Assembly (NCBI GenBank): GCA_022402465.1 | Contig: JAKRSH010000007.1 | Coordinates: 1-64,000 of the forward strand | DNA length: 64,000 nucleotides | Reading direction: 5' to 3' | Origin: Leptospiraceae bacterium | Lineage (GTDB): Bacteria; Spirochaetota; Leptospiria; Leptospirales; Leptospiraceae | Shown here: positions 19,554 to 59,459 of the stretch, piece after piece | How the letters are laid out: every line of letters begins with the position of its first letter | Position numbering within the stretch: position 1 is the first letter of the stretch | Translations under genes and position numbers: made by a program | The notes under the pieces: generated by a model | What the model was told of the DNA's origin: nothing | Seen by the model: the letters and a program-made list of their open reading frames with translations, nothing else | Database searches by the model: none

Positions 19554-20861
19554 TTAAATTTCTAAAGAGTAAATTCCTAGGGGCTTGAGTCTACCACGAA
19601 CGATAACCTCGCCTATAGATTTTCTTTGAATATTGACCTTGAGCTGAGATTCTAATTCTTCTGATATAATAACTTTTGCATTGTACTCTTTGGTAAGAGA
19701 TTCAAGTCGAGAAGCAACATTGACTGCATCACCTAAGACAGTGTATTCCATTTGACCAGATGATTCAACATTTCCAGAAAAAACAACTCCTGCGTGAAGT
19801 CCAATTCCAATCTCTATAGGAACTAAATTCTTAGAAATTCTATCTTGGTTGAAAATCTTCAACTTATTCTGCATATCAAGGGCACAAAGAACTGCTTTTT
19901 CGATTTCAATTTCATTTCCACGACTTTGTGGAACACCAAATACTGCCATAACAGCATCCCCTACAAATTTATCCAAGGTTCCACCATGAGCAAAAATACT
20001 ATTTAACATTAGGCTTCGGTATTCAGCAAGAAACCTTGCTAGTTCTTCTGTATCCATCTCCTCAGATAAGCTAGTGAATTTTCGAATATCCGAAAAAAGG
20101 ATTACTGCATACTTACGATTGTTAGAAATTACAGACTCTCCTGAATTATTTGTAAGTTCATCAACCACCGAAGGGGAAAAGTATCTGGCTAGAGTTGCTC
20201 GCTTAGATTCAATTTCAATAGACCGAGACAGTAGATTGCGAACTCTAAATACTGCATAAACCATAGATCCGCCAACGACCAAGAAAATGATTGGTTTCTG
20301 AGTAGAATCATTTAAAATAAATCCATCGCCTGTAATATAATCCTTCCAACTATTAGTTAATGGAATTCCTATATTCAAACCATAAATTAGTAAAACAAGA
20401 TAACTTACTATAGCAAGGCTTAAAGCGAAAACTAAGGGGCGAACCTTAAATTCCAGAGAAGCAAGAGAAACTGGTATCAGAAAATAAAAGAGCAAAGGAT
20501 TCTTTAATAAAAAGGCAAAATTCTCAGGATATTCAATCCTCCAATAGTAAACGGAGATTCCTATAATTAAAATAAAATCAAAAATGATTGTGAGATAATT
20601 CGAAATACCAATAAGGAATGATGCCTTGCATCTATAGATTACATAAGTATGAAGCAAAGTAACTGCTATAAAAAGAAATAAGGCAGTAAAATTTGGTAGG
20701 ATGTAATCCGCTCTTTCAAATGTATTGCTGATAATAGGAAAGCTGAGTGCAAGAATAAATAAATATCGAATTTGGTTGACTTTCTTTAATCCGAAATCTT
20801 GCTCTTCTTTAATTAAACTCTGTGTTGTATTCGAAATCTCATTCGCCATAAATGTATTCAT
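19554..20861 (-). CDS. Membrane class III adenylate cyclase
   Basis: This 435-residue protein has about six hydrophobic helices (residues 27-205) followed by a class III cyclase domain from about residue 245. Metal-binding aspartates are in FSDIRKF and GDAVMAVFG. The purine-specifying lysine is in LDKFVGD, and the second specificity position is Thr (YTVLGDAVN) rather than Asp. Lys plus Thr is the pattern of class IIIb adenylate cyclases, a subgroup that includes bicarbonate-responsive enzymes. The expected product is cAMP. It lies 35 bases downstream of perR in the same direction, so read-through from the perR promoter is possible. No good ribosome-binding site is seen at the ATG. Confidence 0.9.
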   Translation of the reverse strand: MNTFMANEISNTTQSLIKEEQDFGLKKVNQIRYLFILALSFPIISNTFERADYILPNFTALFLFIAVTLLHTYVIYRCKASFLIGISNYLTIIFDFILIIGISVYYWRIEYPENFAFLLKNPLLFYFLIPVSLASLEFKVRPLVFALSLAIVSYLVLLIYGLNIGIPLTNSWKDYITGDGFILNDSTQKPIIFLVVGGSMVYAVFRVRNLLSRSIEIESKRATLARYFSPSVVDELTNNSGESVISNNRKYAVILFSDIRKFTSLSEEMDTEELARFLAEYRSLMLNSIFAHGGTLDKFVGDAVMAVFGVPQSRGNEIEIEKAVLCALDMQNKLKIFNQDRISKNLVPIEIGIGLHAGVVFSGNVESSGQMEYTVLGDAVNVASRLESLTKEYNAKVIISEELESQLKVNIQRKSIGEVIVRGRLKPLGIYSLEI

Positions 20862-21499: not shown

Positions 21500-22075
21500 A
21501 TGGAAATACTGAGCAATTCCAATTCTAAACCAGACAAAGCCAAGAATAAGGAAGCAAGTAGCCTTGCTTGGGAAGTATATAAGAAATCATTTTCCTACCC
21601 GGAAGACGGATTTGAAGAAATGCTTGCTGCGATCAGGGCTGGAGATACCCACAAGGTTTTAACAATTTTGCAGAACTGCCACATCTACCAAAAAAATGAG
21701 AAAGGCTATTCTGCTTTGATGATAGCTTCGTACAACAACCAATTGGAAATTGCTAAGCTGCTTTTAGATGTCGGAGCTGATCCGAACTCTATTGACCAAG
21801 CTGGTAATTCCATACTTATGGGCGCAAGCTTCAAGGGTCACTCTGAAATGATTAAATTACTTATCAGTTATGGTGCAGATCCTAATTATATCAGCCCCAA
21901 AGGACAAAATGCACTGCAAATGGCAACCATGTTTGGACGCAAAGAAGTTCTCGAAATTTTGCAACCTGATCAGAACCCAAGAACTAAAGATAGAATTCTA
22001 TCTTGGTTTCAGTATTTATTTTCCTTCATTCGCAAGGAAGACTCATTCAAAGCAAATAAGGAGGCAATAAAATGA
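21500..22075 (+). CDS. Ankyrin-repeat protein of the catalase operon
   Basis: This is a 191-residue protein without a signal peptide. It contains about four ankyrin repeats between residues 35 and 155: [20 protein letters not shown], then [20 protein letters not shown], then [20 protein letters not shown]. In Leptospira, and in Pseudomonas and Campylobacter with other ankyrin proteins, such a gene accompanies a catalase and is thought to help haem loading or catalase activity. The start has a strong AAAGGAG site. The stop overlaps the katE start by four bases (ATGA at 22072-22075), so translation is coupled. Control by PerR is inferred from the upstream boxes. Confidence 0.9.
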
Positions 22076-23499
22076 GCAAAAAAATATTAACAACCGCAGG
22101 CGGACAACCTGTAGCAGAAAACCAACACAGCCTAACAGCTGGTAAAAATGGACCCATCTTAATCCAAGATACACATCTGATTGAGAAGCTTGCTCATTTT
22201 AATCGAGAGCGAATTCCAGAAAGAGTCGTTCATGCAAAAGGTGCTGGAGCTTATGGAACTTTAACAATCACTAAAGATTTGAAGGATTATACTATAGCTT
22301 CCGTGTTTTCTGAAGTGGGCAAAAAAACAGATCTATTCTTACGATTCTCAACAGTTGCTGGCGAAAAAGGATCAGCAGATACAGAAAGAGATCCAAGAGG
22401 CTTTGCTATCAAGTTCTACACCGAACAAGGAGTCTGGGATGTTGTAGGAAATAACACTCCAGTATTCTTTGAGAGAGATCCATCTAAGTTTCCTGATTTT
22501 ATCCACTCTCAGAAAAGGGATCCAGTTACAGGTTACAAAAATCCAGTAAGAATGTGGGACTACTGGTCTAAGTCTCCGGAGGCTATGCACCAAATTACTA
22601 TCCTTTTCAGTGATCGTGGAATTCCTGATGGTTACAGATTTATGAATGGGTACGGATCGCATACTTTTGGATTTTGGAATGCAAAACAAGAAAGATTCTG
22701 GGTAAAGTTCCATTTCAAAACAAAGCAAGGCATCAAAAATCTTTCACCTGAAAGAGCAGCAGAGCTTGCAGGAACAGATCCAGATTATGCAACTAGAGAT
22801 CTATTTGAAGCTATCCAAAGAAAAGAATTTCCTCAGTGGAAGGTCTGTGTGCAGATTATGCCTGAAAAGGATGCTGAAAAATACAAAGTGAACCCTTTTG
22901 ATTTAACAAAGGTATGGTCACATAAGGATTATCCATTGATCGAAGTGGGTATTATGGAACTACATACCAACCCAAGGAATTACTTTGCAGAAGTCGAGCA
23001 GGCTGCATTTTCACCATCCAACATGCCACCTGGTATCTCAGCATCTCCAGATAAAATGCTACAAGGCAGATTATTTGCTTATCCGGATGCCCAAAGATAT
23101 AGACTAGGTGGTAACTTTCAAATGATTCCTGTAAACCGTTCTAGAAGTCAGGTCAATACTTACCAAAGAGATTCCGTTCGCTTCGATGATAATTATGACT
23201 ATGATAACTATGAGCCAAATGGTTTTGACGGACCTGTCCAAGATACAAGTGTTGCAGAGCCTGCCTTGAAAATTTCTGGAGACGCTGATAGATACAATAG
23301 CCACAAGGATAACAACGATTATAGCCAAGCTGGTGATTTGTATAGAATGCTAAAACCAGAAGAACATGAAAGAATGACTTCAATCATTGCATCAACCATG
23401 AAGGGAATACCTCAGTCCTTAGTGGAAGCAAATGTTGAACATTTTAAGAAATGTGACCCTGAGTATGGAAAGAAAATTGCTGATAAAGTAAAAAAATAA
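22072..23499 (+). CDS. katE: Haem catalase
   Basis: This is a 475-residue monofunctional haem catalase of the small-subunit type (2 H2O2 to O2 and water). The distal histidine lies in [15 protein letters not shown], the catalytic asparagine in [15 protein letters not shown], and the proximal haem tyrosine in [15 protein letters not shown]. No signal peptide is visible at the N-terminus. The gene is translationally coupled to the ankyrin gene, and the pair diverges from perR. This is the arrangement known in pathogenic Leptospira, where peroxide induces the catalase through PerR. A strong intrinsic terminator follows. Confidence 0.97.
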
Positions 23500-26199: not shown

Positions 26200-26233
26200 A
26201 GAAAAAGTAAATGTGCCACCAAATGGAAATAAG

Positions 26234-27496
26234 ATGCAAATGAGTTCAAGGGATTATGCACTTCAATTTCAAAATTATTTAGAAGAAAAAACAGGCCTCA
26301 TTCTCTCGAATCAGGCTAAATGGGAAGAGTTGATAAAAAAATATTCAACTTTAGAATTAGAATCCTTTTTAGAAAGAATTCAGCAAACTTCATCAAATTT
26401 TTCTTTATCAAATAATTCAGATTCTTTTGAATTATTTTGGCAGAAAGCTTATCAGCTTCTAAATATTTCTGAAACATATTTCTATAGAGATCCAGAGCAA
26501 TTGGATACAATTATTTTTGATGTTTTAGCTGCCCAAATCCAATCTAGCCCCAAGACTAAACTAAGAGTTTGGAGTGCAGGTTGTTCCAAAGGAGAGGAAG
26601 TATATACTTTAGCAATTTTATTACAAATCCTTAAAGAAAGTCGCTTTCCTGAGTTAGACTTTAGTGTTAAAGGAACAGATATCCAGGTACCGTCCATTCA
26701 ATGGGCTAAACAAGGTAAATATGAGCCATATTCCGTCAGATCCGATTTACCATCGTATTTTAAAAGGTTTTTAGAATTCAAAAAAGGCAACTATTTCATT
26801 CATCCCATGATTCAGAAATTAGTTTCCTTTCATTCAAGTAATCTATTAGAACCAACACAGGATAAATACCATCTTATATTTTGTAGAAATGTGATGATTT
26901 ATCTTTCCGATAGACAAAAGGTTAAAATTTTAAATCATTTTTCTAATGCTTTATTGCCTAATGGAATTTTGGTAACGGGTCATTCTGAAGTGGGTAGCCA
27001 ACTTCCCAATTGTTTTTCCACAAGACATATTCCTAAAAAGACTACCTATTATCTCTTTGATGAGTCAAAAGATAGTAAAAATTCTAGGGAGGCTATAGAT
27101 ATTTTAACCCAAGAAGCATTATTCGTAAGTAAGCTAGGAAAAATTCCAGAAAGTCCTTTAACTATCATTAATAAAGATACTCAAACTTCCAAAAGAGATC
27201 TAAAATCGAATCAAATTTTTAAAATTTTAGAGCAAGATACCACAGTTTCCTATCCAGAATCTATAGAATCCAAAATGAGATTGCTCAAACAAGCTATATA
27301 TTTAGATCCCGAAGATATTCATTCTTATTACGAACTTTCATCTTTGTTGTGGGAAATTGGAGAGAGAGAACAGGCAAAAATATACCAAACAAGAATTAGA
27401 GTTCTTGTAAAGAACAATCCAATAGTCGTCGATAAATGGAAGGAGACAAAAGAATGGAATCTGGAATGGGAAGCATATTTGAACGAAGATCTATAG
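26234..27496 (+). CDS. CheR-type receptor methyltransferase with C-terminal TPR-like segment
   Basis: CheR enzymes methylate receptor glutamates using S-adenosylmethionine. The protein has an N-terminal helical CheR domain, the ETYFYRDPEQ segment, the SAM-binding WSAGCSKGEEVYTLAILL, and the family motif HLIFCRNVMIYLSDRQKV. After about 130 linker residues there is a TPR-like segment near the C-terminus (YLDPEDIHSYYELSSLLWEI). A C-terminal TPR is a feature of WspC-type CheR proteins. The ATG at 26234 has GGAAATAAG just before it; an in-frame GTG at 26213 is less likely. It is the first gene of a same-strand cluster and overlaps the next gene by 43 bases. Confidence 0.9.
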   Translation: MQMSSRDYALQFQNYLEEKTGLILSNQAKWEELIKKYSTLELESFLERIQQTSSNFSLSNNSDSFELFWQKAYQLLNISETYFYRDPEQLDTIIFDVLAAQIQSSPKTKLRVWSAGCSKGEEVYTLAILLQILKESRFPELDFSVKGTDIQVPSIQWAKQGKYEPYSVRSDLPSYFKRFLEFKKGNYFIHPMIQKLVSFHSSNLLEPTQDKYHLIFCRNVMIYLSDRQKVKILNHFSNALLPNGILVTGHSEVGSQLPNCFSTRHIPKKTTYYLFDESKDSKNSREAIDILTQEALFVSKLGKIPESPLTIINKDTQTSKRDLKSNQIFKILEQDTTVSYPESIESKMRLLKQAIYLDPEDIHSYYELSSLLWEIGEREQAKIYQTRIRVLVKNNPIVVDKWKETKEWNLEWEAYLNEDL

Positions 27497-28506
27497 ATGA
27501 ACAATGGATCGTATTTCGCATTTTAGATAGAAAATATGCTATTGAAGCTAGATCTGTCAAAGAAATTCTTTCAATCGTTCCGTTTAATCCTAGTTTTTTA
27601 GGTGGAGCAGGATTCTTTGCATCTTTTCCACTACGTGGAAGTTTAATTTATGCTTTTGACCTAAGATATTACTGGGGAGAACAACCAAAACCATATCATA
27701 TTGAAGACAACTTATTGTTACTCGATAATCATATTGCAATACCGGTTCAAGAAATAATAGAAATTAAAGACTTGAATCTTACGCATTCTATTACAGATGG
27801 ATCAGAGTCAGTTCACTTAATAAAAGCTGAACTTGTTGAAAATGATTTTGTAGTTTCCCTTTTGGATTCTCAAGCACTGTTAAACTTAAACATTGAGTCA
27901 ACAGAGTTAGCAGATTCAACAGATCCTCAAATAACCAAACAAAAAATGAATTGGTTTGAAATTTCGACCTCCAACTATTCTGAATTAGATAATGAGATTT
28001 TATCAAGAAGAAAGCAAGCTTATGAAAGTATTGAAAGCATAGTGGATTCTGGCTCAATGATAGCTCTTGCCGTTCTTGAGTCAGTGAATGAGATATTCTG
28101 TCTTCCTATAGATCAAATTTTAGAATTCTCTGAGCCTGGACAAATCACACCTATACCAAGTTCCTTGCCTGAGCTTCATGGATGTATGAACCTGCGAGGA
28201 GAAGTGATTCCCGTTCTCTCCTTGGCTGCTTTAATGGGTAAAAATAGAAAATATTCATTTACCGAAGGAAAAATAATTTTAGTAAAGGAAGATTCTTATC
28301 CAATAGGTATTCTTGTCGATGAATTGTTAGATGTTGTTTATAGAAAAAGCAATGAAAAAGTTTTAACTAACATTAATTCTAAATTTAGCTCAGAAACTTT
28401 TAATGGCTCTTTAATTGAAGCATCTTATCCAGATTTTAACGGGAATCACTTAAATCAAATTAGTTTAGAATTAATCTTTAGTAAAGCAAAGTCAGTACTA
28501 CAATGA
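27454..28506 (+). CDS. Double CheW-domain coupling protein
   Basis: CheW proteins link receptors to CheA. This 350-residue protein carries two CheW-like domains. The N-terminal one (residues 10-135: IVFRILDRKYAIEARSVKEI) appears divergent, and the C-terminal one (residues 195-350: SMIALAVLESVNEIFCLPID, HGCMNLRGEVIPVLSLAALM, YPIGILVDELLDVV) is canonical. A charged linker joins them. Wsp systems encode two separate CheW proteins (WspB, WspD), so this may be their fused equivalent. The ATG at 27454 is chosen because AAGGAG lies eight bases before it; an in-frame ATG at 27436 has none. The stop overlaps the next start (ATGA at 28503-28506). Confidence 0.88.
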   Translation: MESGMGSIFERRSIDEQWIVFRILDRKYAIEARSVKEILSIVPFNPSFLGGAGFFASFPLRGSLIYAFDLRYYWGEQPKPYHIEDNLLLLDNHIAIPVQEIIEIKDLNLTHSITDGSESVHLIKAELVENDFVVSLLDSQALLNLNIESTELADSTDPQITKQKMNWFEISTSNYSELDNEILSRRKQAYESIESIVDSGSMIALAVLESVNEIFCLPIDQILEFSEPGQITPIPSSLPELHGCMNLRGEVIPVLSLAALMGKNRKYSFTEGKIILVKEDSYPIGILVDELLDVVYRKSNEKVLTNINSKFSSETFNGSLIEASYPDFNGNHLNQISLELIFSKAKSVLQ

Positions 28507-30449
28507 TAAAAAGTATCCTAGAAAAATTTAGCTTAAAATTTCGTTTAATTATATTCGTAACAGGTATATCATTATTAATTATTTTTGTTCTCACAATTTT
28601 ATTTTTGATTTTTGCTTCCAATGCTATACAGGATGAAGTACAAGCTCAAGTTGAATCCATAGGTAAGACTAAGAAAGAACTCATACTGCGATTTTTTGAA
28701 GACAAAGACAAAGATGTTTTAATACTGGCTACGACTTCAGATGTTAAGATCGCATTTCAAGCATTTAAGAAAGGCTTTAATGAATCTTCCAATATCCCTT
28801 TAAAAATCAGACAATCCTACATTGAAAAGAATCCTTATAGTAGCGAAAGAAAAGATGAATACCTAAAAGCTGATGATAATACTAAATACTCTCAAGAACA
28901 TGAGAAGTATCATTCTTTCTTTCAAAAATACATCAATGTAAAATCCTTTTATGATTTATTCTTAATTGATTTAGAAGGCAATATAATATATTCCGTTTCC
29001 AAAGAGGATGATTTTGGAACAAATCTTTTAACTGGGAGTTATAGGGATTCCAATCTTTCAAAGGTATTTCAAGAATCTAAAAACCAAGGTTCAATAGGGA
29101 TAGTAAATTTCTCTGATTTTAGAACCTATCCACCATCTAACCACAGACCCGCTGCTTTTTTAGCAACTCCTATCTTTATTAATGGAAGTAAAATCGGTGT
29201 ATTGGCAGTTCAAATATCTACTGAAGAATTAAACTCATTGATGATGAATCACTACCTTACAGATTCCTCATCAATATATTTGGTAGGCTATGATCGATTT
29301 TTTCGATCTAATGATCATAGATACCCAAATGAAAAATTTATATTACATCAAAAGAATAATTCATTATCTGTTCAAAAAGCATTAGATGGTGCAATAGGAA
29401 TAATTTTAGAAAAAAACTATCGTGGAACAGAAGTTTATACAGCCTACTCGCCAATCACAATCCATGGAATGAGATTTGCTATTCTATCCGAATTTCATTC
29501 TGAGGCTGCTTTGTATCCATTAAGACAAATTACGAATAAAATATTGATTGCATTCTTAGTTATTTTTGTATTCGTAATATCGATAACTCTCGCATTAACT
29601 CAGTGGATCGCTAGTCCTATAACAAATGTTATAAATATGCTCTCCTCCTCTACTCGTGAAATCGCAACTACAATCGAGCAACAAGAGAAAACTGCTCAAA
29701 TGCAATCAGCCTCAGTAAATCAAACTAGTACAACTATGGAAGAATTAGGTGCTACATCTCGTCAAAACGCAGAACAAACGGCTACGGTTTCAGAAAAATC
29801 CCAAGAAGCCCAAGCTAAAGCTACAGAAGGTGCTGAATTAGTTCTGCAAATGGTACAATCAATGCAAGAGTTAAGAATCAATGTTGATAGCATAAGCAAA
29901 CAAATACTGGATTTATCTGAAAAAAATAATCAAATCAGTGAAATTATAAACTTGGTTTCTGATATTGCAATTCAAACCAATATGTTAGCCTTAAATGCAG
30001 CTGTGGAAGCTGCTAGAGCTGGAGAATACGGGAAAGGGTTTGCAGTAGTTGCTGTTGAAATCAGAAAACTAGCAGACGAATCAAATTTAAGTTCAGAAAA
30101 AATCCAAGAGATTCTTTTGGAAATAAAAAAATCAACTGATAACACAGTAATGGCAGCTGAAGAAGGAATTAAAAAGGTAGAAAGATCTGTTAATTTTGGA
30201 ATTAGCGTTGAAGGTTCATTTCACGGAATTCGCCAAGCGATTGATACAGTCTTTCAGTCTCTTGAACAAATTTCTTTAAATATTCGCCAACAATCTATAG
30301 CGATCAATGAAATCGTTCAAGCCATGGATTCTTTAAATAGAGGATCCGAAGAAACTGCTATAGGCATCAGTCAAATCAAAGAAGGAGTATCCCAAGTAAA
30401 TGATGCTGCTTCTGAAATGAAAGTTCTTATTGATGGAAAGAATGATTGA
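28503..30449 (+). CDS. Methyl-accepting chemosensory receptor with Cache-like sensor
   Basis: This 648-residue receptor has a first membrane helix at about residues 15-38, then a periplasmic region of about 300 residues that fits a double-Cache ligand-binding domain (FYDLFLIDLEGNIIYSVSKE; FLATPIFINGSKIGVLAVQI). A second membrane helix lies near residues 344-366, followed by the cytoplasmic signalling coiled coil. The hairpin tip [20 protein letters not shown] is near residue 495. Only a short ASPITNVINML segment follows the second helix before the coiled coil starts, so a complete HAMP domain is not apparent. It is co-translated with the CheW gene and lies 12 bases before the CheA gene. Confidence 0.92.
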   Translation: MIKSILEKFSLKFRLIIFVTGISLLIIFVLTILFLIFASNAIQDEVQAQVESIGKTKKELILRFFEDKDKDVLILATTSDVKIAFQAFKKGFNESSNIPLKIRQSYIEKNPYSSERKDEYLKADDNTKYSQEHEKYHSFFQKYINVKSFYDLFLIDLEGNIIYSVSKEDDFGTNLLTGSYRDSNLSKVFQESKNQGSIGIVNFSDFRTYPPSNHRPAAFLATPIFINGSKIGVLAVQISTEELNSLMMNHYLTDSSSIYLVGYDRFFRSNDHRYPNEKFILHQKNNSLSVQKALDGAIGIILEKNYRGTEVYTAYSPITIHGMRFAILSEFHSEAALYPLRQITNKILIAFLVIFVFVISITLALTQWIASPITNVINMLSSSTREIATTIEQQEKTAQMQSASVNQTSTTMEELGATSRQNAEQTATVSEKSQEAQAKATEGAELVLQMVQSMQELRINVDSISKQILDLSEKNNQISEIINLVSDIAIQTNMLALNAAVEAARAGEYGKGFAVVAVEIRKLADESNLSSEKIQEILLEIKKSTDNTVMAAEEGIKKVERSVNFGISVEGSFHGIRQAIDTVFQSLEQISLNIRQQSIAINEIVQAMDSLNRGSEETAIGISQIKEGVSQVNDAASEMKVLIDGKND

Positions 30450-30461
30450 ATGAGCAAATAG

Positions 30462-32777
30462 ATGAAAATAGAAGACCAAGAAATAAGGGAAATATTTGAA
30501 ATAGATAGTTTAGACCATATTCAAAAGATTGAATCTGGAATTCTTGATTTAGAACAAAATCCAAATTCCCAAGAAGGTTTCAAGACGATATTTCGCGAAG
30601 CTCACAGTTTAAAAGGGTCAGCAGGAATTCTAGGCCTGAAAGAAATAGAATCTATAACTCATGTCTTAGAAGATTATTTAGGGAAATTAAGTAAAGGTTA
30701 TGGTGATTATAAATCAGAAGATAATGATAGAATTTTTTATGTTTTAGATCAACTCAAACTACTAGTCAAACAAGCAATAACTGGTGAAAAGGCAAAAGTA
30801 GATGTAAAAAAAACAGTTGATGTCCTAACTAAAAAAGAGCCTCCACCCAATCAAAAAGATATTAATTCTAACAGAAGTTCAATTTTTATAAATAAATCAA
30901 ATCAAGCTCCAAGTTCAAGTGAGATTCCTTCGATCCCAATTTCTCCTAAAGTGAATGATGGTGTAGTTGAATCGACTACTAGCCAAACCGATGAACGTAA
31001 AAAAGCTAGCAATTCAGAAAAAAAACCCATCCCTGAAACAAGTTTCCAAAAATCTTCTTCAAAAAAAGGATTTCGGATTGAAACTATGCGAGTCGATCCA
31101 GAAAAACTCGATGCATTATTAGGAAATACTGGGGAACTAATTATAGCAAAGAACAGAATTCAAAAAAGGTCTTTAGAAATATCAGAATTACTAATGCAGT
31201 TAGAGGAATTTTCAAAAATTTGGAGAAGCATAAAAGGTATTGAACCTAAAGAAAGGGTTAATTGGGACAATATCTTAAAAAAAATTATTACATTAAAAGC
31301 AAAATGTCAACAAGATGCAACTAAACTTGATTTGGTTTCAAATAAACTTGATGAAGGTGTGCAGAAAGTTCGTTTATTACCTCTTTCAAGTGTTTTCGAA
31401 ATTTTTCCTCGAGTTGTTAGAGATTTAAGTAGAGAATTAGGAAAAGAAGTTTATCTAACTTTGGAAGGCGGAGAAGTTACTGCCGACAAACTAATCATTG
31501 AAGAATGCAAAGATTCATTAATGCATTTGGTTAGAAATGCTCTTGATCACGGTATTGAAACTAGAGAAGAAAGAGTAAATAATGGAAAAGCAAATCCTGC
31601 TCGAATAAGAATATCTGGAAGCCAAAAGGATAATTTCATTAATCTCATTGTAGAAGATGATGGAAGAGGTTTAGATATAGAGACAATAAAGGAAAAGGCT
31701 ATTTCAATCGGATTATATAATGCGCAAGAATTGAGTGATTTAACAGAGTCTCAAATTTTTGGTTTAATTTTTCAACAGGGTTTTTCTACTCGAACCGAAG
31801 TAACTAATCTTTCAGGGAGAGGTTACGGTATGGACATTGTTAGAAACTTTGCAGAAAGATTTAAAGGAACAATTGAAATCGAATCTTCTAAAGGTACTGG
31901 AACTAAATTTTTCATTAAAATTCCGACCAACTTTAGTACGAATCATTTACTTATTGTTGGGGTAAATGGTTGGAAGTATGGAATTCCAATCGAATTCGTT
32001 AAACAAAGTTTAGTTGTTAGAAAAGAAGAAATTAGATTTGTAGAGTCTAAACCAACTATTCACTTTGGAAATGAATTTGTAAGAATTATATCATTTTCAG
32101 ATTTTTTTCCAGTTACATACCAAAGAAAAGAATCAATAAAAAAAAATAAGAGATATGAGACATGCATTGTTTTAGAGTATAATTCTGAAAAATATGGAAT
32201 AATCATTGATTACATTTATGAAAAGCAAGAAATTTTGTTGAAACCTTTTTTAGGATTATTAGAAGGAATAAGAAACATAAGTGGAACAACAATATTAGAA
32301 TCAGGTGAAATCTGTTGCATTATAAATATTTCAGAACTATTTAAAGAGATTAAAGGTAAGGCATTATATAATAATTTAAAAGAAGATATTGTCCAAAGTA
32401 AAAAAAATAAATCTATTTTAATAATTGAAGATAGCTTAATAACTCGAGCACAATTGCAAAGAATTATTGAAGGAAATGGATATCCTGTTATTACGGCGAC
32501 TAATGGCCAAGAAGGTCTAAATAAATGTCAAATATCTCCGCCTGATCTTATACTTACAGATATAGAAATGCCAATAATGGATGGATTTGGATTTATCCGA
32601 GAAATAAAAAAACACGAAACATTGAGGAGAATTCCTATTATAGTCTTAACAAGCCTTGGCTCCAATGAACATATTGAAATGGGTAAAATGTTAGGCGCAG
32701 ATAGCTATTTAGTTAAATCTCAATTCGATCAATCTCTTCTTATGAAAACGGTTGAAAGATTAGTGGCTGGAAGTTAA
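30462..32777 (+). CDS. Hybrid CheA histidine kinase with C-terminal receiver
   Basis: This 771-residue kinase has all CheA modules plus a receiver. The HPt domain (1-105) has the phosphorylated histidine in AHSLKGSAG (H48). A low-complexity linker (about 110-200) replaces a clear P2 domain. Dimerisation (about 205-300) and ATPase domains follow, with the N box LMHLVRNALDHGIE, G1 VEDDGRGLD and G2 LSGRGYGMDIVR. A CheW-like domain spans about 490-640. The receiver (646-771) has acidic residues in IIEDS, a phospho-acceptor in LTDIEMP and a lysine in YLVKSQF. The CheA-REC arrangement is that of WspE, not of typical motility CheA. It probably phosphorylates the CheB and receiver-cyclase encoded downstream. 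Confidence 0.93.
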   Translation: MKIEDQEIREIFEIDSLDHIQKIESGILDLEQNPNSQEGFKTIFREAHSLKGSAGILGLKEIESITHVLEDYLGKLSKGYGDYKSEDNDRIFYVLDQLKLLVKQAITGEKAKVDVKKTVDVLTKKEPPPNQKDINSNRSSIFINKSNQAPSSSEIPSIPISPKVNDGVVESTTSQTDERKKASNSEKKPIPETSFQKSSSKKGFRIETMRVDPEKLDALLGNTGELIIAKNRIQKRSLEISELLMQLEEFSKIWRSIKGIEPKERVNWDNILKKIITLKAKCQQDATKLDLVSNKLDEGVQKVRLLPLSSVFEIFPRVVRDLSRELGKEVYLTLEGGEVTADKLIIEECKDSLMHLVRNALDHGIETREERVNNGKANPARIRISGSQKDNFINLIVEDDGRGLDIETIKEKAISIGLYNAQELSDLTESQIFGLIFQQGFSTRTEVTNLSGRGYGMDIVRNFAERFKGTIEIESSKGTGTKFFIKIPTNFSTNHLLIVGVNGWKYGIPIEFVKQSLVVRKEEIRFVESKPTIHFGNEFVRIISFSDFFPVTYQRKESIKKNKRYETCIVLEYNSEKYGIIIDYIYEKQEILLKPFLGLLEGIRNISGTTILESGEICCIINISELFKEIKGKALYNNLKEDIVQSKKNKSILIIEDSLITRAQLQRIIEGNGYPVITATNGQEGLNKCQISPPDLILTDIEMPIMDGFGFIREIKKHETLRRIPIIVLTSLGSNEHIEMGKMLGADSYLVKSQFDQSLLMKTVERLVAGS

Positions 32778-32780
32778 AGT

Positions 32781-33809
32781 ATGAAGACAAAAGTTCTAAT
32801 TCTTGAAGATAATCCAGTGGTACGAAAATTTTATGAAAAAGCCATCGCTAATTTAGCCTTTGTTGAATTAGTCGGTATGGCAAGTAATGGACAGGAAGGT
32901 CTAGCAATTCTTCATTCTAAAGATCCAGATGTGATTCTATGTGATTTAAATATGCCTGTAATGGATGGGTTTGAATTTACAAGAAGAGCAATGATAGAAA
33001 AACCTAAACCAATACTTATTGTTTCAGATCTTGTGCAAGAAGAAGATCATGAAAATAGATATAAGGTATTAGAATTGGGCGCTATTGATATTTTACCAAA
33101 ACCAAAGTCAGGTGGAAATATTGAATGGCTTACTGGTGATTTAGAGAGAAAAATTAATATTCTAAAACGAGTTGTTGTCTTCTCAAGAAAATCAGATAGA
33201 GAAAAATCATTTTCACCATCAGTAAATGATCATGGTAAAAAAGATGAATATCAAATAGTTGCTATTGGTGCATCTACAGGTGGCCCTCAAGCATATCAAA
33301 AGATTTTTTCTGAGATAAATCCAAAATTCAAGTTACCCATTGTTTGCGCTCAGCATATTAGCGAAGGTTTTACAAATAGCTTGGTCTCATGGTTAAGTTC
33401 AACTTCAAATTTAAAAATCCATTTGGCGTCTGATCAAGAAATTTTGAAACCTGGAACTATTTATTTTCCACCAGATGGATTTCATATCAAAGTAGATAAG
33501 CTAAAAATTCAATTGGACCCTAACAAAGGAAACTATAGACACAAACCCTCTATTGATTATTTATTTACAACAATATTTGAAAATTACGGATCTAAGTCAA
33601 TTGGTGTCTTATTAACTGGAATGGGATCTGATGGAGCTGAAGGTCTAGAAAAAATACGCAAAGCTGGAGGATATACTATTGCACAAGATGAGGCAACTTC
33701 CATTGTTTATGGAATGCCCCGTGTAGCAAAAGAAAATGGCAGCATTAAAGAAGAACTACCAATTGAAAAAATAGCTTCTCGCTTACTAATGATGGGAGGA
33801 GTATCTTGA
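32781..33809 (+). CDS. CheB-type receptor methylesterase/glutaminase
   Basis: CheB removes methyl groups from receptors when phosphorylated and so resets them. This 342-residue protein has an N-terminal receiver (ILEDN, phospho-acceptor in ILCDLNMPVMDG, lysine in LPKPKSG) and a C-terminal methylesterase domain from about residue 155. The catalytic serine is in GASTGGPQ, the histidine in CAQHISEG and the aspartate in GMGSDGAEG. The TGA stop is inside the TTG start of the next gene (33806-33809), implying tight coupling with the receiver-cyclase. Both proteins are candidate phosphate acceptors for the CheA hybrid. Confidence 0.93.
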   Translation: MKTKVLILEDNPVVRKFYEKAIANLAFVELVGMASNGQEGLAILHSKDPDVILCDLNMPVMDGFEFTRRAMIEKPKPILIVSDLVQEEDHENRYKVLELGAIDILPKPKSGGNIEWLTGDLERKINILKRVVVFSRKSDREKSFSPSVNDHGKKDEYQIVAIGASTGGPQAYQKIFSEINPKFKLPIVCAQHISEGFTNSLVSWLSSTSNLKIHLASDQEILKPGTIYFPPDGFHIKVDKLKIQLDPNKGNYRHKPSIDYLFTTIFENYGSKSIGVLLTGMGSDGAEGLEKIRKAGGYTIAQDEATSIVYGMPRVAKENGSIKEELPIEKIASRLLMMGGVS

Positions 33810-35080
33810 AAGATTCAAAAATTTTATTTGCTGAAGATAGTACTATTCAAGGAACAATTTTAAAGAAGCTATTAACTCAAAGAGGATTCGATGTTCGATG
33901 GGCAAAAAATGGTGAAGAAGGCTGGAACTTTCTTCAAGATTTTCAACCTTCTCTCATTATCTCAGATGTAGAAATGCCAATTTCAGACGGATACGAATTC
34001 TGCACCCGAGTAAAAAAAGATTTAAATTTTCGAAACATACCTGTTGTTTTGTGTTCGAGCCTCTCAGACCCTGAAGATATTATTCGTGGGATAGAGTGTG
34101 GCGCTAATGGATACATCACAAAACCATATGAAGAATCCTTTCTGATGTATCGAATCGAATCAATCTTGAATAACATGGAACAAGATGTCGAAGATAACAA
34201 TCCTATCGATGTTCAATATGCAGGTAAAACATATACCATCCACGCAAGTAAAATGCATATGATGCAGATTCTTTTATCAATATATGAAAATACTGTAAAG
34301 AAAAATAAAGAACTCTTAATTACGCAGATTGATTTGCAGCATAAAGCCCAAGAACTAGAGAAAAGCTTACAAGAGTCCGAAAGACTGCTTCGCAATATTC
34401 TCCCTGAAAAAATTGCTGATAGGTTAAAATCTCAAGGTTTCGATAAACCAGAGTATTTTGAGAGTGTTTCTGTACTTTTTACTGACTTTAAAGGATTTAC
34501 TGATGTAGCAGAATTTATGAGCCCAGACGAATTGGTAGAACAACTTGATCTTTGTTTTGCTCAATTTGATGCTATTGTAGAGATGTATGGAGTTGAAAAA
34601 TTAAAAACGATAGGCGATTCTTATATGGCTGCTGGTGGTATTCCTGTTTCAAATCAAACCCACCCTGTTGATCTTATTAGAGCAGCAATGGAAATTAAAC
34701 AATTTATGGACATGACTAAAAATCTAAGAAAGGACCAAGGACTTCCATATTGGGAATTGAGGATAGGTATCCACACAGGTCCTGTAGTTGCTGGAGTTAT
34801 AGGAAACAAAAAGTTCGCTTATGATATGTGGGGTGATACTGTAAATACCGCTAGTAGAATGGAATCATCTGGCGAAGTTGGTCGGGTTAATATTTCACGA
34901 GATACTTATGACAGAGTAAAAGATTTTTTTCTTTGTCATTACAGAGGGAAAATTCCCGCTAAAAATAAAGGTTCTATAGATATGTTTTTTGTTGAGAGGA
35001 TACACCCAGAGCTTTCTCGTGATGAAGAAGGTTTAGTTCCAAATGATAAATTTGTTTCTTTATATAAAAAGCTAACATGA
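33806..35080 (+). CDS. Receiver-class III adenylate cyclase fusion (response regulator)
   Basis: This 424-residue protein joins a phosphorylation receiver to a nucleotide cyclase. The receiver (1-125) has E10/D11, the phospho-acceptor D54 (ISDVEMP) and K106 (TKPYEE). A coiled-coil linker (about 150-205, ending ERLLRNILPEKIADRL) leads to the cyclase domain (about 213-395). Metal aspartates are in FTDFKGF and GDSYMA. The purine-selecting pair is Lys (EKLKTIGD) and Asp (YDMWGDTVN), the adenylate-cyclase combination, so cAMP is the expected product. The start is TTG, supported by a strong GGGAGGAG site inside cheB. Its place in the cluster corresponds to that of WspR, whose output domain is a diguanylate cyclase instead. 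Confidence 0.93.
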   Translation: MKDSKILFAEDSTIQGTILKKLLTQRGFDVRWAKNGEEGWNFLQDFQPSLIISDVEMPISDGYEFCTRVKKDLNFRNIPVVLCSSLSDPEDIIRGIECGANGYITKPYEESFLMYRIESILNNMEQDVEDNNPIDVQYAGKTYTIHASKMHMMQILLSIYENTVKKNKELLITQIDLQHKAQELEKSLQESERLLRNILPEKIADRLKSQGFDKPEYFESVSVLFTDFKGFTDVAEFMSPDELVEQLDLCFAQFDAIVEMYGVEKLKTIGDSYMAAGGIPVSNQTHPVDLIRAAMEIKQFMDMTKNLRKDQGLPYWELRIGIHTGPVVAGVIGNKKFAYDMWGDTVNTASRMESSGEVGRVNISRDTYDRVKDFFLCHYRGKIPAKNKGSIDMFFVERIHPELSRDEEGLVPNDKFVSLYKKLT

Positions 35081-35133
35081 AAGAAGAAAGTAAGTATGAA
35101 AAAATCGATATTAATAAAGGAAGTTAAAACCGT

Positions 35134-37020
35134 ATGATTTATTCCAATCAACAATTTAAAAGAGGAAAGAGTCTCAAATCTTCGTTTCTATTCTTTTTTT
35201 CAGTTTTACTTATACTTCTGATTTTTAGTGAACTTTTTATAACGGTAAAATCATTTATCAATTTTTTAGATCAAAAAAAATCGCTTCATACAATTCAATT
35301 AACAAGTGATTTAATGCTAGGGACTATTGAATTATCTTTAGAAAGAAGTGTTTCTCAAGCAGCTTTACACATTCAAGATCCTGTAAATTCAGAATTTAGA
35401 AAATTGTTAGACCGTCAAAGAGATTTAGCAAATCCTCGAATACAAAACGTAATTGATAATACTGAACAAACCTTAGTAAAAGAAAAATTAAAAGATATCA
35501 TGAATCGCTTAGAAAAAATTCGAAGTGATATAGACAGAAATTTAGCTTTGCCATTAAGTCAAAGAGATTTATCTATCGTAAATAATGTTCATGCTTTTTT
35601 TCCTCAAGTAATTGAAGACGCAAGATCAATAAGTAATTTACTAAAGGGAGTGCATATAAATTTAGATAAAGATATACAAGCTCTTGAGAGTCTACAAGCA
35701 TTTGCTTGGGAAGCTAGAGAATACGGAGGAAGAGAAAGAACTTATTTAGCAATTGCTGTGTATAACAGATCTGAATTTGACAGCGAGATTCTAGGTCGTA
35801 TGGAGACATTAGATAGTCACACCCTTTACGCCAAACGAATGATAGATTCTCTTTTTTCAATTAATACATATTCTGAAGATTTGATCGAAGATTATAAAAA
35901 AATGAATACTTTATATTTTTCAGATTATTACAAGAATAAAGAAGAACTAAAAAGTCAAATAAAGAAGCGCGAATTTAATGAAACTTTTTCACATTTTTTT
36001 CAATATTCATCGGATGCTCTTGATTCTATTGTTCAATTAGTTCAGTCATCTGCGGAAGAGTTAGTTCCTGTACAAGAACAAATCGTTCGAAATGCATTAA
36101 TTCAATTCTCTGTTAGTTTAATTATAACCATTGTTGCTATAGGAATAGGTTTTCTTTCTATTAGATATTCAACAAAAACTTTAATTGATAGAATAACAGA
36201 AGCTTCACAAGTTTTAAAAAAGTTAGCCTCAGGGGACAAATCCAATGATGTAAATATTTCAGGTGTTCTAGCCATTGAGATTGCTGATTTATTAGAAGCC
36301 GCTCAAACATTTAGAAAAAATATGCTGGAATTGGAAGATTTAATTTCTGACCAATCTGCTGCAGTTAACCAGACAACTACAACTATGATTTCGTTAGAAA
36401 AGTCTTCTAGACGAACAGCCGAAGATGCACAAGAAGGTGTCAAAAAGTCTCAGACTGCACTCAATATTGCAGAAGATGGTGCGATTATGGGGGACAAAAT
36501 GAACCAAGTACAAGCTCAAGTAGAGAAAGTTGTCGATGAAATGGCTCAAAAAATAGACCTCTTAGTTGAACAAACAGGTGATATTTCTACGATAGTTAGC
36601 TTGGTAGGTGAATTAGCAAACCAAACAAATATGCTTGCACTAAATGCGGCAGTAGAAGCTGCAAGAGCTGGTGAGTTCGGAAAAGGATTCTCAGTAGTTG
36701 CGTCAGAAATTCGAAAGCTTGCTGATGAATCCAAAAATTCAGCATCTAGAATACAAAGTATTTTGCTAGAATTTAAGTCATCATCCCAAGAAGCAATTCA
36801 ATTGAGTAGAAAAGGCAAACAATTTGTTGATGAAGGATCTACAATAGTAAATTATACAACTGCAAAATTCAAAGAAGTATCAATAACTTCTAGATTTGTT
36901 TCTGAAACTATAGAAACAATAGCCTTAAACTTAAAGGAACAATCACGCGCTTATGGAGAAATCACTTTAGCTATGAATTCTCTAAACGATAAAACGAATC
37001 GATTTATTAATAATCAATAG
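35134..37020 (+). CDS. Second methyl-accepting chemosensory receptor
   Basis: This 628-residue receptor has membrane helices at about residues 17-37 and 325-345. Between them is an all-helical periplasmic domain of about 285 residues ([39 protein letters not shown]), unlike the Cache-type sensor of the first receptor. A HAMP domain follows ([20 protein letters not shown]). The signalling hairpin tip [20 protein letters not shown] is near residue 497. The tip is almost identical to that of the first receptor, so both can probably join the same array. It lies 53 bases after the receiver-cyclase gene, with AAGGAAG 13 bases upstream of the ATG. Confidence 0.92.
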
Positions 37021-57473: not shown

Positions 57474-59459
57474 ATGGAGACTAATTTCACTCCCTCCAAA
57501 ATCACGATTCGGGCAAAACTGCTTGGGATCATCCTAGCAATTATAGTCTCTGGACTTGCACTTATGATTTTTCTTGCTACCTATTTCTTCAGAGACGATT
57601 CTGAGAAAAGGGTTCAAGACAATAACCTCGCTCTGGTAGATATCATAGGTCAGAAGGTAGAATCTGATCTTAAAGGAATATCTTTTGCCCTGCAAAGCTT
57701 TTCCAATCTTCAAATGCAGAATTCCAGTGCTCAAGTTAAATCCGAGCAAGAAAAAGAACTTTTTGCTAACAATCCCAACTTTATATATATGGCGATTCTA
57801 AGTTCATCTGGAGAAAACATAACTACAGTTAAGTATTTTATTAATAAAAAGTACATTGAAGAAAATGAGATTAAACCATCATCCTTTCAGTCAGTTAACA
57901 AATCCTATGAAGAGAAACTTTTCAAGTCACTTAGAGGGGGAACTGTCTTATTCAATGCTAGCCCGGGGTTTGTAACACCTATCTTAGGAATGGCTATACC
58001 ATGGAGAAATGCTGGTAAGAATTATTCCTTACTTGTATACATTGATTCTATTGAATTTATTAAAACTTTTCAAGGACAAGGAATTAATACCACTTATTTG
58101 GTAAATGAAGAAGGTGAAATACTCGCCCACTTAGATACCAAACTTGTCATTGAAGGTTCAAATTTGTCTAATGTGCCTATCGTTAAATCAATGCTAGAGT
58201 CTAAAATTGACAATAGGCAAATTAAATACAATGACGACAAGAATAAAGAAATATTAGGTTCCTTCAAGAAGCTTTGGAACTATGGACTTGGAATTATCTC
58301 TGTAGTGGAGGCTGATTTAGTTTTCGAAGCTGTTTATAACATCCAAAGAAGGAACTTGATAATGCTTTTCATCATTATCAATATTTCTGTAGTAATTGTT
58401 TTTATATTTTCAAGAACCATCTCTAATCCAATTAAATTATTAGTAGAGGCCACTAAGGAAGTTGAACAAGGGAATTTTAACGTAACCATTAAACCAGTAT
58501 CAGGTGATGAAGTTGGGGTTTTGACTCATTCATTCCGTTCGATGGCGGAAGGATTAGAAGAAAGGGAAAAAGTAAAAAGCATCTTAGGTTCCATGATTGA
58601 TCCTACGGTGGTGCAAGAAGCCATGAAGGATATGGCTGCCTTGAAACGTGGTAAGGAAGATGAAATTACTGCATTCTTTTCAGATGTTGCTGGTTTCTCT
58701 ACAATTTCAGAACAGCTAACTTCTGTTGACTTAGCGAGCTTATTGAATGAATATCTTTCTTCAATGACTATCATACTAAAACAACATGAAGGTGTATTGG
58801 ATAAATATATAGGGGATGCAATAGTTGCTATCTTCAATGCCCCCGTTCATATTGAAAATCACTCACTTAAGGCAGCAAGAGCTTCCTTAGAGATGGTAGG
58901 AAAATTAGATGAACTTCGTAAATATTGGACCAAGAACAATTTGTATTCCAAGGAAGCCCAAGAAATGGATGCAAGAATTGGTCTTAACACTGGTCCCGCA
59001 AAAGTAGGATTCATGGGAACTGATGATCTCGCTTCCTATACAATGATGGGAGATACAGTTAACTTGGCTGCAAGACTTGAGGCTGCGGGTAAGGATTATG
59101 GTGTAAGTATACTGGTGAGTGAAACAGTTAATGAAAGAATCATTTCTGAAATGTTTACTCGTGAATTGGATCTAGTACGAGTTAAAGGGAAAAATGAACC
59201 TGTTAAATTGTATGAGTTGATTGATACAAAATCCGGTATTGCTAGTAATTTGAAAGAGTGTGCAGCTCTTTATGAGCAAGGTCTCAAGAAGTATCTTTCA
59301 CGAGATTTTAAAAATGCTATCGTCTTTTTCCAAGATGCTATAAAAGCTAAGGGAACAAAAGACAAATCTTCTAAAATGTTAATTGAAAGATGTGAATATT
59401 TTATAACTGAACAACCACCGAAAGATTGGGATGGAGTTTTCACTAGGACGCATAAATGA
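57474..59459 (+). CDS. Membrane adenylate cyclase with Cache-like sensor and HAMP
   Basis: This 661-residue protein has a first membrane helix (about 14-36), a periplasmic sensor of about 255 residues that fits a Cache fold (FIYMAILSSSGENITTVKYF; TTYLVNEEGEILAHLDTK), a second helix (about 294-315), a HAMP domain (SNPIKLLVEATKEVEQGNFN) and a class III cyclase domain (about 390-575). Metal aspartates are in FFSDVAGF and GDAIVAIF. Specificity residues are Lys (LDKYIGD) and Thr (YTMMGDTVN), the class IIIb adenylate-cyclase pair. A C-terminal TPR-like helix pair follows (LYEQGLKKYLSRDFKNAIVF). The stop overlaps the FecR-type gene (ATGA). Confidence 0.92.
   Translation: METNFTPSKITIRAKLLGIILAIIVSGLALMIFLATYFFRDDSEKRVQDNNLALVDIIGQKVESDLKGISFALQSFSNLQMQNSSAQVKSEQEKELFANNPNFIYMAILSSSGENITTVKYFINKKYIEENEIKPSSFQSVNKSYEEKLFKSLRGGTVLFNASPGFVTPILGMAIPWRNAGKNYSLLVYIDSIEFIKTFQGQGINTTYLVNEEGEILAHLDTKLVIEGSNLSNVPIVKSMLESKIDNRQIKYNDDKNKEILGSFKKLWNYGLGIISVVEADLVFEAVYNIQRRNLIMLFIIINISVVIVFIFSRTISNPIKLLVEATKEVEQGNFNVTIKPVSGDEVGVLTHSFRSMAEGLEEREKVKSILGSMIDPTVVQEAMKDMAALKRGKEDEITAFFSDVAGFSTISEQLTSVDLASLLNEYLSSMTIILKQHEGVLDKYIGDAIVAIFNAPVHIENHSLKAARASLEMVGKLDELRKYWTKNNLYSKEAQEMDARIGLNTGPAKVGFMGTDDLASYTMMGDTVNLAARLEAAGKDYGVSILVSETVNERIISEMFTRELDLVRVKGKNEPVKLYELIDTKSGIASNLKECAALYEQGLKKYLSRDFKNAIVFFQDAIKAKGTKDKSSKMLIERCEYFITEQPPKDWDGVFTRTHK

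Follow-up and report, generated by a model that had tools for sequence, protein, structure and literature searches.

A chemosensory operon of a leptospiral-lineage spirochaete with a receiver-cyclase, predicted to make cAMP, as its response regulator

What does a chemosensory array control when the regulator encoded beside it is a nucleotide cyclase? The question is raised by the first 64,000 nucleotides of contig JAKRSH010000007.1 from a Leptospiraceae bacterium (assembly GCA_022402465.1; hereafter the window), where seven intact open reading frames (ORFs), all on the + strand and spanning positions 26213-37020, encode chemosensory proteins, one of which combines a receiver and a class III cyclase in a single chain. 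A first-pass annotation had described seven same-strand genes with these domains, and both the ORFs and Pfam agree with it. Because the cyclase part of this regulator is of class III and has adenylate-type residues, a pathway leading from the array to cyclic AMP (cAMP) is the natural reading. The sequences make it probable that this is an operon of the alternative cellular function (ACF) type in which the array governs phosphorylation of CheA, phosphorylated CheA that of the receiver-cyclase, and the phosphorylated receiver-cyclase the level of cAMP, with adaptation provided by CheR and CheB.

The receiver-cyclase gene (33806-35080, + strand) starts with TTG and overlaps cheB by 4 nt. Its product consists of a receiver (D54), a small beta hairpin, a long helix (residues 149-198) and a class IIIa adenylate cyclase domain (Pfam Response_reg, 83.5 bits; Guanylate_cyc, 167 bits). 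The set of residues needed for receiver phosphorylation is complete (E10, D11, D54, S84 and K106); E10, D11, D54 and K106 are invariant in five orthologs, and the position of S84 is occupied by S or T. Likewise, all six catalytic positions of the cyclase are intact, namely the metal-binding D227 and D271, the adenine-selecting K267 and D340, and the N347/R351 transition-state pair, so that the Lys/Asp adenylate residues ascribed to the protein at first pass are indeed there, within a full catalytic set. The metal-binding residues align with the C1 half of mammalian adenylyl cyclases, and the adenine and transition-state residues with the C2 half. Since one chain holds residues of both types, two identical chains would together make up complete active sites. 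The nearest solved structures are those of mammalian adenylyl cyclases and of mycobacterial cyclases such as Rv1625c. On the basis of these residues the domain is assigned to the class IIIa adenylate cyclases, with ATP as the predicted substrate.

How might the state of the receiver reach the cyclase? The AlphaFold model (mean pLDDT 80) lays the protein out as receiver, beta hairpin, unbroken helix 149-198, short transducer helix and cyclase fold; confidence is low (45-49) where the helix ends. Counted from the KP motif of the receiver, the cyclase metal site begins 119-121 residues further on in every homolog compared; these homologs belong to three phyla and comprise the orthologs of the class and proteins from Balneola and Chlamydiota. 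Mechanical coupling of receiver to cyclase would require a helical linker of fixed length, which would account for this constancy. DgcR, a REC-GGDEF enzyme from Leptospira biflexa, is described as being activated by a register switch along its helical linker (PMC8041772), and by analogy a switch of the DgcR type may act in the receiver-cyclase too.

The association of this protein with chemosensory genes is not confined to the window. A full-length receiver-cyclase is present in 5 of 48 searched genomes of the class, the window genome counted, and all four relatives carry it in the same operon. The order cheR-cheW.cheW-mcp-cheA.REC-cheB-REC.AC (dots denote fusions; AC, adenylate cyclase) is complete in three of them (L039, L041 and L042), and the fourth (L040) has the same order from cheW onward, where its contig ends; the genomes that keep the six-gene order come from two families. 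A chance gene neighbourhood is ruled out by this conservation across other genomes of the class. In the ortholog comparison the receiver-cyclase is the best-conserved protein of the set, with 50-52% identity to the window protein, against 37-41% for the first receptor (MCP1), 37-40% for CheA, 38-40% for CheB and 27% for CheR. The second receptor (MCP2) has a counterpart at the same place in L042 only (36% identical).

The remaining genes of the operon, all on the + strand, supply the parts of a complete array. cheR (26213-27496, with an alternative ATG start at 26234) encodes a methyltransferase (Pfam CheR, 148 bits; best Foldseek match CheR1/CheR) with a short, degenerate C-terminal tail resembling tetratricopeptide repeats (TPR). 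The TPR-like segment claimed for it earlier is sub-threshold in the window protein (16.7 bits against TPR_8, for a cut-off of 25.7), where the structure model places helix pairs at residues 344-403 with moderate confidence, and clear in the CheRs of the orthologous clusters L039 and L041, which match TPR models above cut-off. The next gene (27436-28506) encodes a fused CheW-CheW coupling protein (two Pfam CheW stretches), a fusion also found in L039, L041 and L042; its coordinate is that of the longest ORF, and the true start is possibly a later ATG further in. MCP1 (28503-30449; MCPsignal, 127.6 bits) has an extracytoplasmic dCache_1 domain (53.4 bits), which points to a small ligand outside the cytoplasm more than to contact with a surface. 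It is followed by a hybrid CheA (30462-32777) in which Pfam and the motifs conserved in the alignment delineate Hpt (H48), H-kinase_dim, HATPase, CheW and receiver domains; the Pfam search found a single Hpt and no P2 domain. CheB (32781-33809) comprises a receiver (68.8 bits) and a methylesterase (CheB_methylest, 207 bits), with GASTGG and GMGSDG motifs. Downstream of the receiver-cyclase lies MCP2 (35134-37020; MCPsignal, 130.6 bits), whose sensor region gave no match in the Pfam search. The junctions, in gene order, measure -61 (longest ORF), -4, +12, +3, -4 and +53 nt, and are thus mostly as tight as had been stated. The spacing suggests co-transcription of the first six genes; MCP2, behind the loosest junction, is the most loosely attached member. 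Promoter and terminator scans gave nothing above chance level. None of the seven genes encodes a stand-alone CheY, CheX or CheD, in agreement with the first-pass annotation.

To which chemosensory class does such an operon belong? A multidomain response regulator stands in place of a single-domain CheY, which a 2012 survey uses to recognize ACF systems (PMC3447774). The CheA has a C-terminal receiver and no P2 was found in it, a combination typical mainly of the F3, F5, ACF and Tfp classes (PMC10782961). CheR-TPR has also been argued, in the 2012 survey, to mark the ACF class (PMC3447774). By predicted domain content and gene order, the window cluster falls among the ACF clusters ordered cheR-cheW-mcp-cheA.REC-cheB-RR, RR being the response regulator.

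In the pathway proposed here, the array would be made up of the receptors (MCP1, with its dCache ligand pocket, and probably MCP2), the fused CheW pair and CheA, and receptor methylation by CheR and CheB would give adaptation. CheA would autophosphorylate at H48 and pass the phosphate to CheB, to D54 of the receiver-cyclase and to its own receiver, the last serving as a phosphate sink or competing acceptor. Phosphorylation at D54 would act through the fixed-length helical linker on the cyclase dimer and change its rate of cAMP synthesis, activation being more likely than inhibition. The phosphotransfer from CheA to the receiver-cyclase is a presumed step, as are the sign of control and the stimulus. 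The cAMP would then be read by cAMP-binding proteins encoded outside the operon; the host genome (3.99 Mb) contains 29 matches to cyclic-nucleotide (cNMP)-binding domains, along with 17 MCP signalling matches and 32 class III cyclase domains. A Chlamydiales locus (L081), in which a cNMP-binding-domain gene lies directly upstream of cheA and the receiver-cyclase, lends support to this pathway. So does the fact that the REC and linker regions of the window cluster and its orthologs group together, as do the CheAs.

Several points weigh against it. Neither a cAMP receptor gene nor a phosphodiesterase gene is found inside the operon. In a genome that encodes 32 class III cyclase domains, finding a cyclase beside signalling genes is nothing unusual, and only conservation sets this cyclase-che pairing apart. 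CheA could phosphorylate the CheYs of other clusters. The five orthologous cyclase domains form no clade in the tree and are scattered among local cyclases. This scatter raised the idea that local paralogs had replaced the cyclase domain more than once; the tree does not establish that, a single clade of the five domains not being rejected (p-AU 0.171).

Could the array steer flagella instead, through the CheYs of other clusters, with the receiver-cyclase as a side branch acting as a phosphate sink or slow modulator? The host genome does contain two further che clusters, each with a stand-alone receiver (L157, CheY-CheB-CheA-CheW; L158, CheY-CheA-MCP-CheW-CheB), and cross-talk between chemosensory pathways is documented (PMC6391922). 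However, given those two CheY-bearing clusters, the window cluster need not drive flagella. Moreover, CheY is lacking from the orthologous clusters as it is from the operon, the CheA carries a receiver and has no detected P2, the CheY-binding domain, and it is the receiver-cyclase that has been conserved most among the cluster proteins. Flagellar control by this array is therefore unlikely. A second possibility is that the receiver-cyclase takes its phosphate from some other kinase, or works as a constitutive cyclase whose receiver does no more than tether it to the array. Receivers can be non-responsive, and the Balneola REC-linker-cyclase occurs without a che cluster, so that other partners are workable; yet the phosphorylation-site residues are kept in the five orthologs, and the operon order is conserved, with the gene overlapping cheB, which makes this alternative improbable. 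It is very improbable that the array has some other output and the cyclase either produces cGMP or has no activity: specificity is read from residues, but Lys267/Asp340 is an adenine-type pair, the metal and transition-state residues are all present, and the closest solved relatives are adenylyl cyclases.

Is the pairing of array and cyclase, on which the proposed array-to-cAMP pathway depends, peculiar to this lineage? GTDB species genomes were scanned with receiver patterns as bait. Receiver-cyclases were found in che clusters of Myxococcota (L088, L093, L112, L113, L129 and others), where the order is cheA-RR-cheB, and also in those of Nitrospirota (L100), Chlamydiota (L081) and other spirochaetes (L159, L160 and L161), the gene directly following cheA in the last three. 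Balneola (L077-L079) has free-standing receiver-class IIIa cyclases of the same linker length, with no che genes nearby. The window-type cyclases of Leptospirae and Chlamydiota have the K/D pair, and those of Myxococcota, Nitrospirota, L159 and L160 a K/T (class IIIb-type) pair. In the Nitrospirae protein (L100, 7447-8595) both metal-binding Asp residues are replaced (Gly and Ala), and this cyclase may be a catalytically dead output. In Chlamydiales bacterium 38-26 (L081, 7301-11715) the genes for the cNMP-binding-domain protein, which has a weak Rce1-like match besides, for a CheA-REC in which no CheW domain was detected, and for a receiver-class IIIa cyclase with Lys, not Arg, at one transition-state position are consecutive; the trio is a possible minimal phosphorelay-cAMP module.

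In other clusters the slot after cheA.REC and cheB holds the same receiver and linker with a different output domain: GGDEF in two cases (Nitrospira, L083; Tepidibacter, L089) and a histidine kinase in three (Chthoniobacter, L082; a deltaproteobacterium, L096; a planctomycete, L099). Most of these clusters are ordered cheR-cheW-mcp-cheA-cheB-RR, as in the window, and a genome of the same order as the host (L162) has the REC-histidine kinase version. Plasmid searches for WspE references showed no wsp-annotated cluster among the matches listed, and the CheA tree was built with ACF-like proxies. In it the CheAs of the window-type clusters group with that of the Chlamydiales locus (support 100/97), and those of Myxococcota make up a separate clade; the branch leading to the Chlamydiales protein is long, and the support was 93 in a second, quicker tree. 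Since the cyclases differ in type (K/T versus K/D) and the CheA clades stand apart, the receiver-cyclase output was most likely joined to chemosensory clusters more than once. I lean towards the broader proposition that arrays directly set cAMP through a receiver-cyclase of their own and that ACF clusters would have come by this wiring on two or more occasions, exchanging the output domain while receiver and linker were conserved. Class IIIa cyclases would have been taken up in this way in Leptospirae and Chlamydiota, and class IIIb-type ones in Myxococcota and other lineages.

Some observations on the surroundings are of separate interest. The CheA of the host cluster L157 (at C38) is unusually long, at 1115 aa; F1 CheAs fused with CheC/CheX are known from Leptospirae (PMC10782961). 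The window itself contains two further class III cyclase domains, at 19584-20108 (- strand) and 58653-59213 (+ strand), and, within 21500-23499, an ankyrin-repeat-like gene that overlaps a catalase-like gene by 4 nt.

How new is the arrangement? As a type it is already on record, the 2012 survey listing 'mononucleotidyl cyclase' among the receiver-fused domains of cheR-TPR clusters (PMC3447774); together with the clusters found here in Myxococcota, Nitrospirota, Chlamydiota and other spirochaetes, this lowers the novelty that the first-pass annotation had implied. What appears to be new is the spirochaete lineage with a class IIIa cyclase, the fact that it is kept in more than one family, and the evidence of separate recruitments; searches of the open-access literature turned up no experiments on a receiver-cyclase from a chemosensory cluster. 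If the proposed pathway is correct, a single operon would provide a route from a chemoreceptor array to cAMP with methylation-based adaptation, unlike the indirect link through Pil-Chp and CyaB, in a compact system where cAMP reads out adaptive receptor signalling. Array output would then be modular, with GGDEF, histidine kinase and two cyclase types found as outputs, and one of the host's 32 class III cyclases would have an input assigned to it.

It remains to set the operon beside the systems it resembles. The Wsp system is defined by the synteny of wspA-F, has been reported from beta- and gammaproteobacteria only and has an output known to be exchangeable, WspR in some cases and WspH in others (PMC8552884). 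The window operon shares with the Wsp systems of Pseudomonas and Burkholderia the protein inventory except for the output, the CheA-REC and the use of a second-messenger (WspR) or multidomain (WspH) regulator, and as an analogy of gene content the label 'Wsp-like' holds. As a statement of kinship by synteny, or of a GGDEF output, it does not: membership is rejected, the order being cheR-cheW.cheW-mcp-cheA.REC-cheB-RR-mcp and not wspA-B-C-D-E-F (MCP, CheW, CheR-TPR, CheW, CheA-REC, CheB), and the output being REC-Guanylate_cyc, an adenylate cyclase by its residues, rather than REC-GGDEF (WspR) or REC-HK (WspH; HK, histidine kinase). The dCache sensor of MCP1 is a further difference.

The Pil-Chp system of Pseudomonas aeruginosa is likewise a chemosensory system that changes cAMP, which it does via a separate membrane cyclase, CyaB. 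It differs from the window operon in this separation and in its multi-Hpt ChpA, its CheYs PilG and PilH, and its type IV pili; the window CheA has one Hpt and the cluster no pilus gene, and the operon is therefore not placed in the Tfp (type IV pili) class. The Myxococcota REC-REC-cyclase clusters share CheA-REC, CheB, CheR, MCP and a receiver-cyclase regulator with the window, but in them the cyclase gene lies between cheA and cheB, the regulator has two or three receivers and a class IIIb-type K/T cyclase, and CheA belongs to a separate clade. DgcR resembles the receiver-cyclase in its receiver, long helical linker and dimeric cyclase, so that the activation logic is likely shared, and differs in its product, c-di-GMP, and its unrelated catalytic fold; the available text of PMC8041772 describes no che cluster for it. 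As for the ACF clusters of the 2012 survey (PMC3447774), its available text does not mention spirochaetes when it names taxa for CheR-TPR/ACF, and the window departs from these clusters in its fused CheW pair and its class IIIa cyclase; with them it shares CheW, MCP, CheA-REC, CheB, a multidomain regulator and a CheR, whose C-terminal tail in the window resembles their TPR at sub-threshold level.

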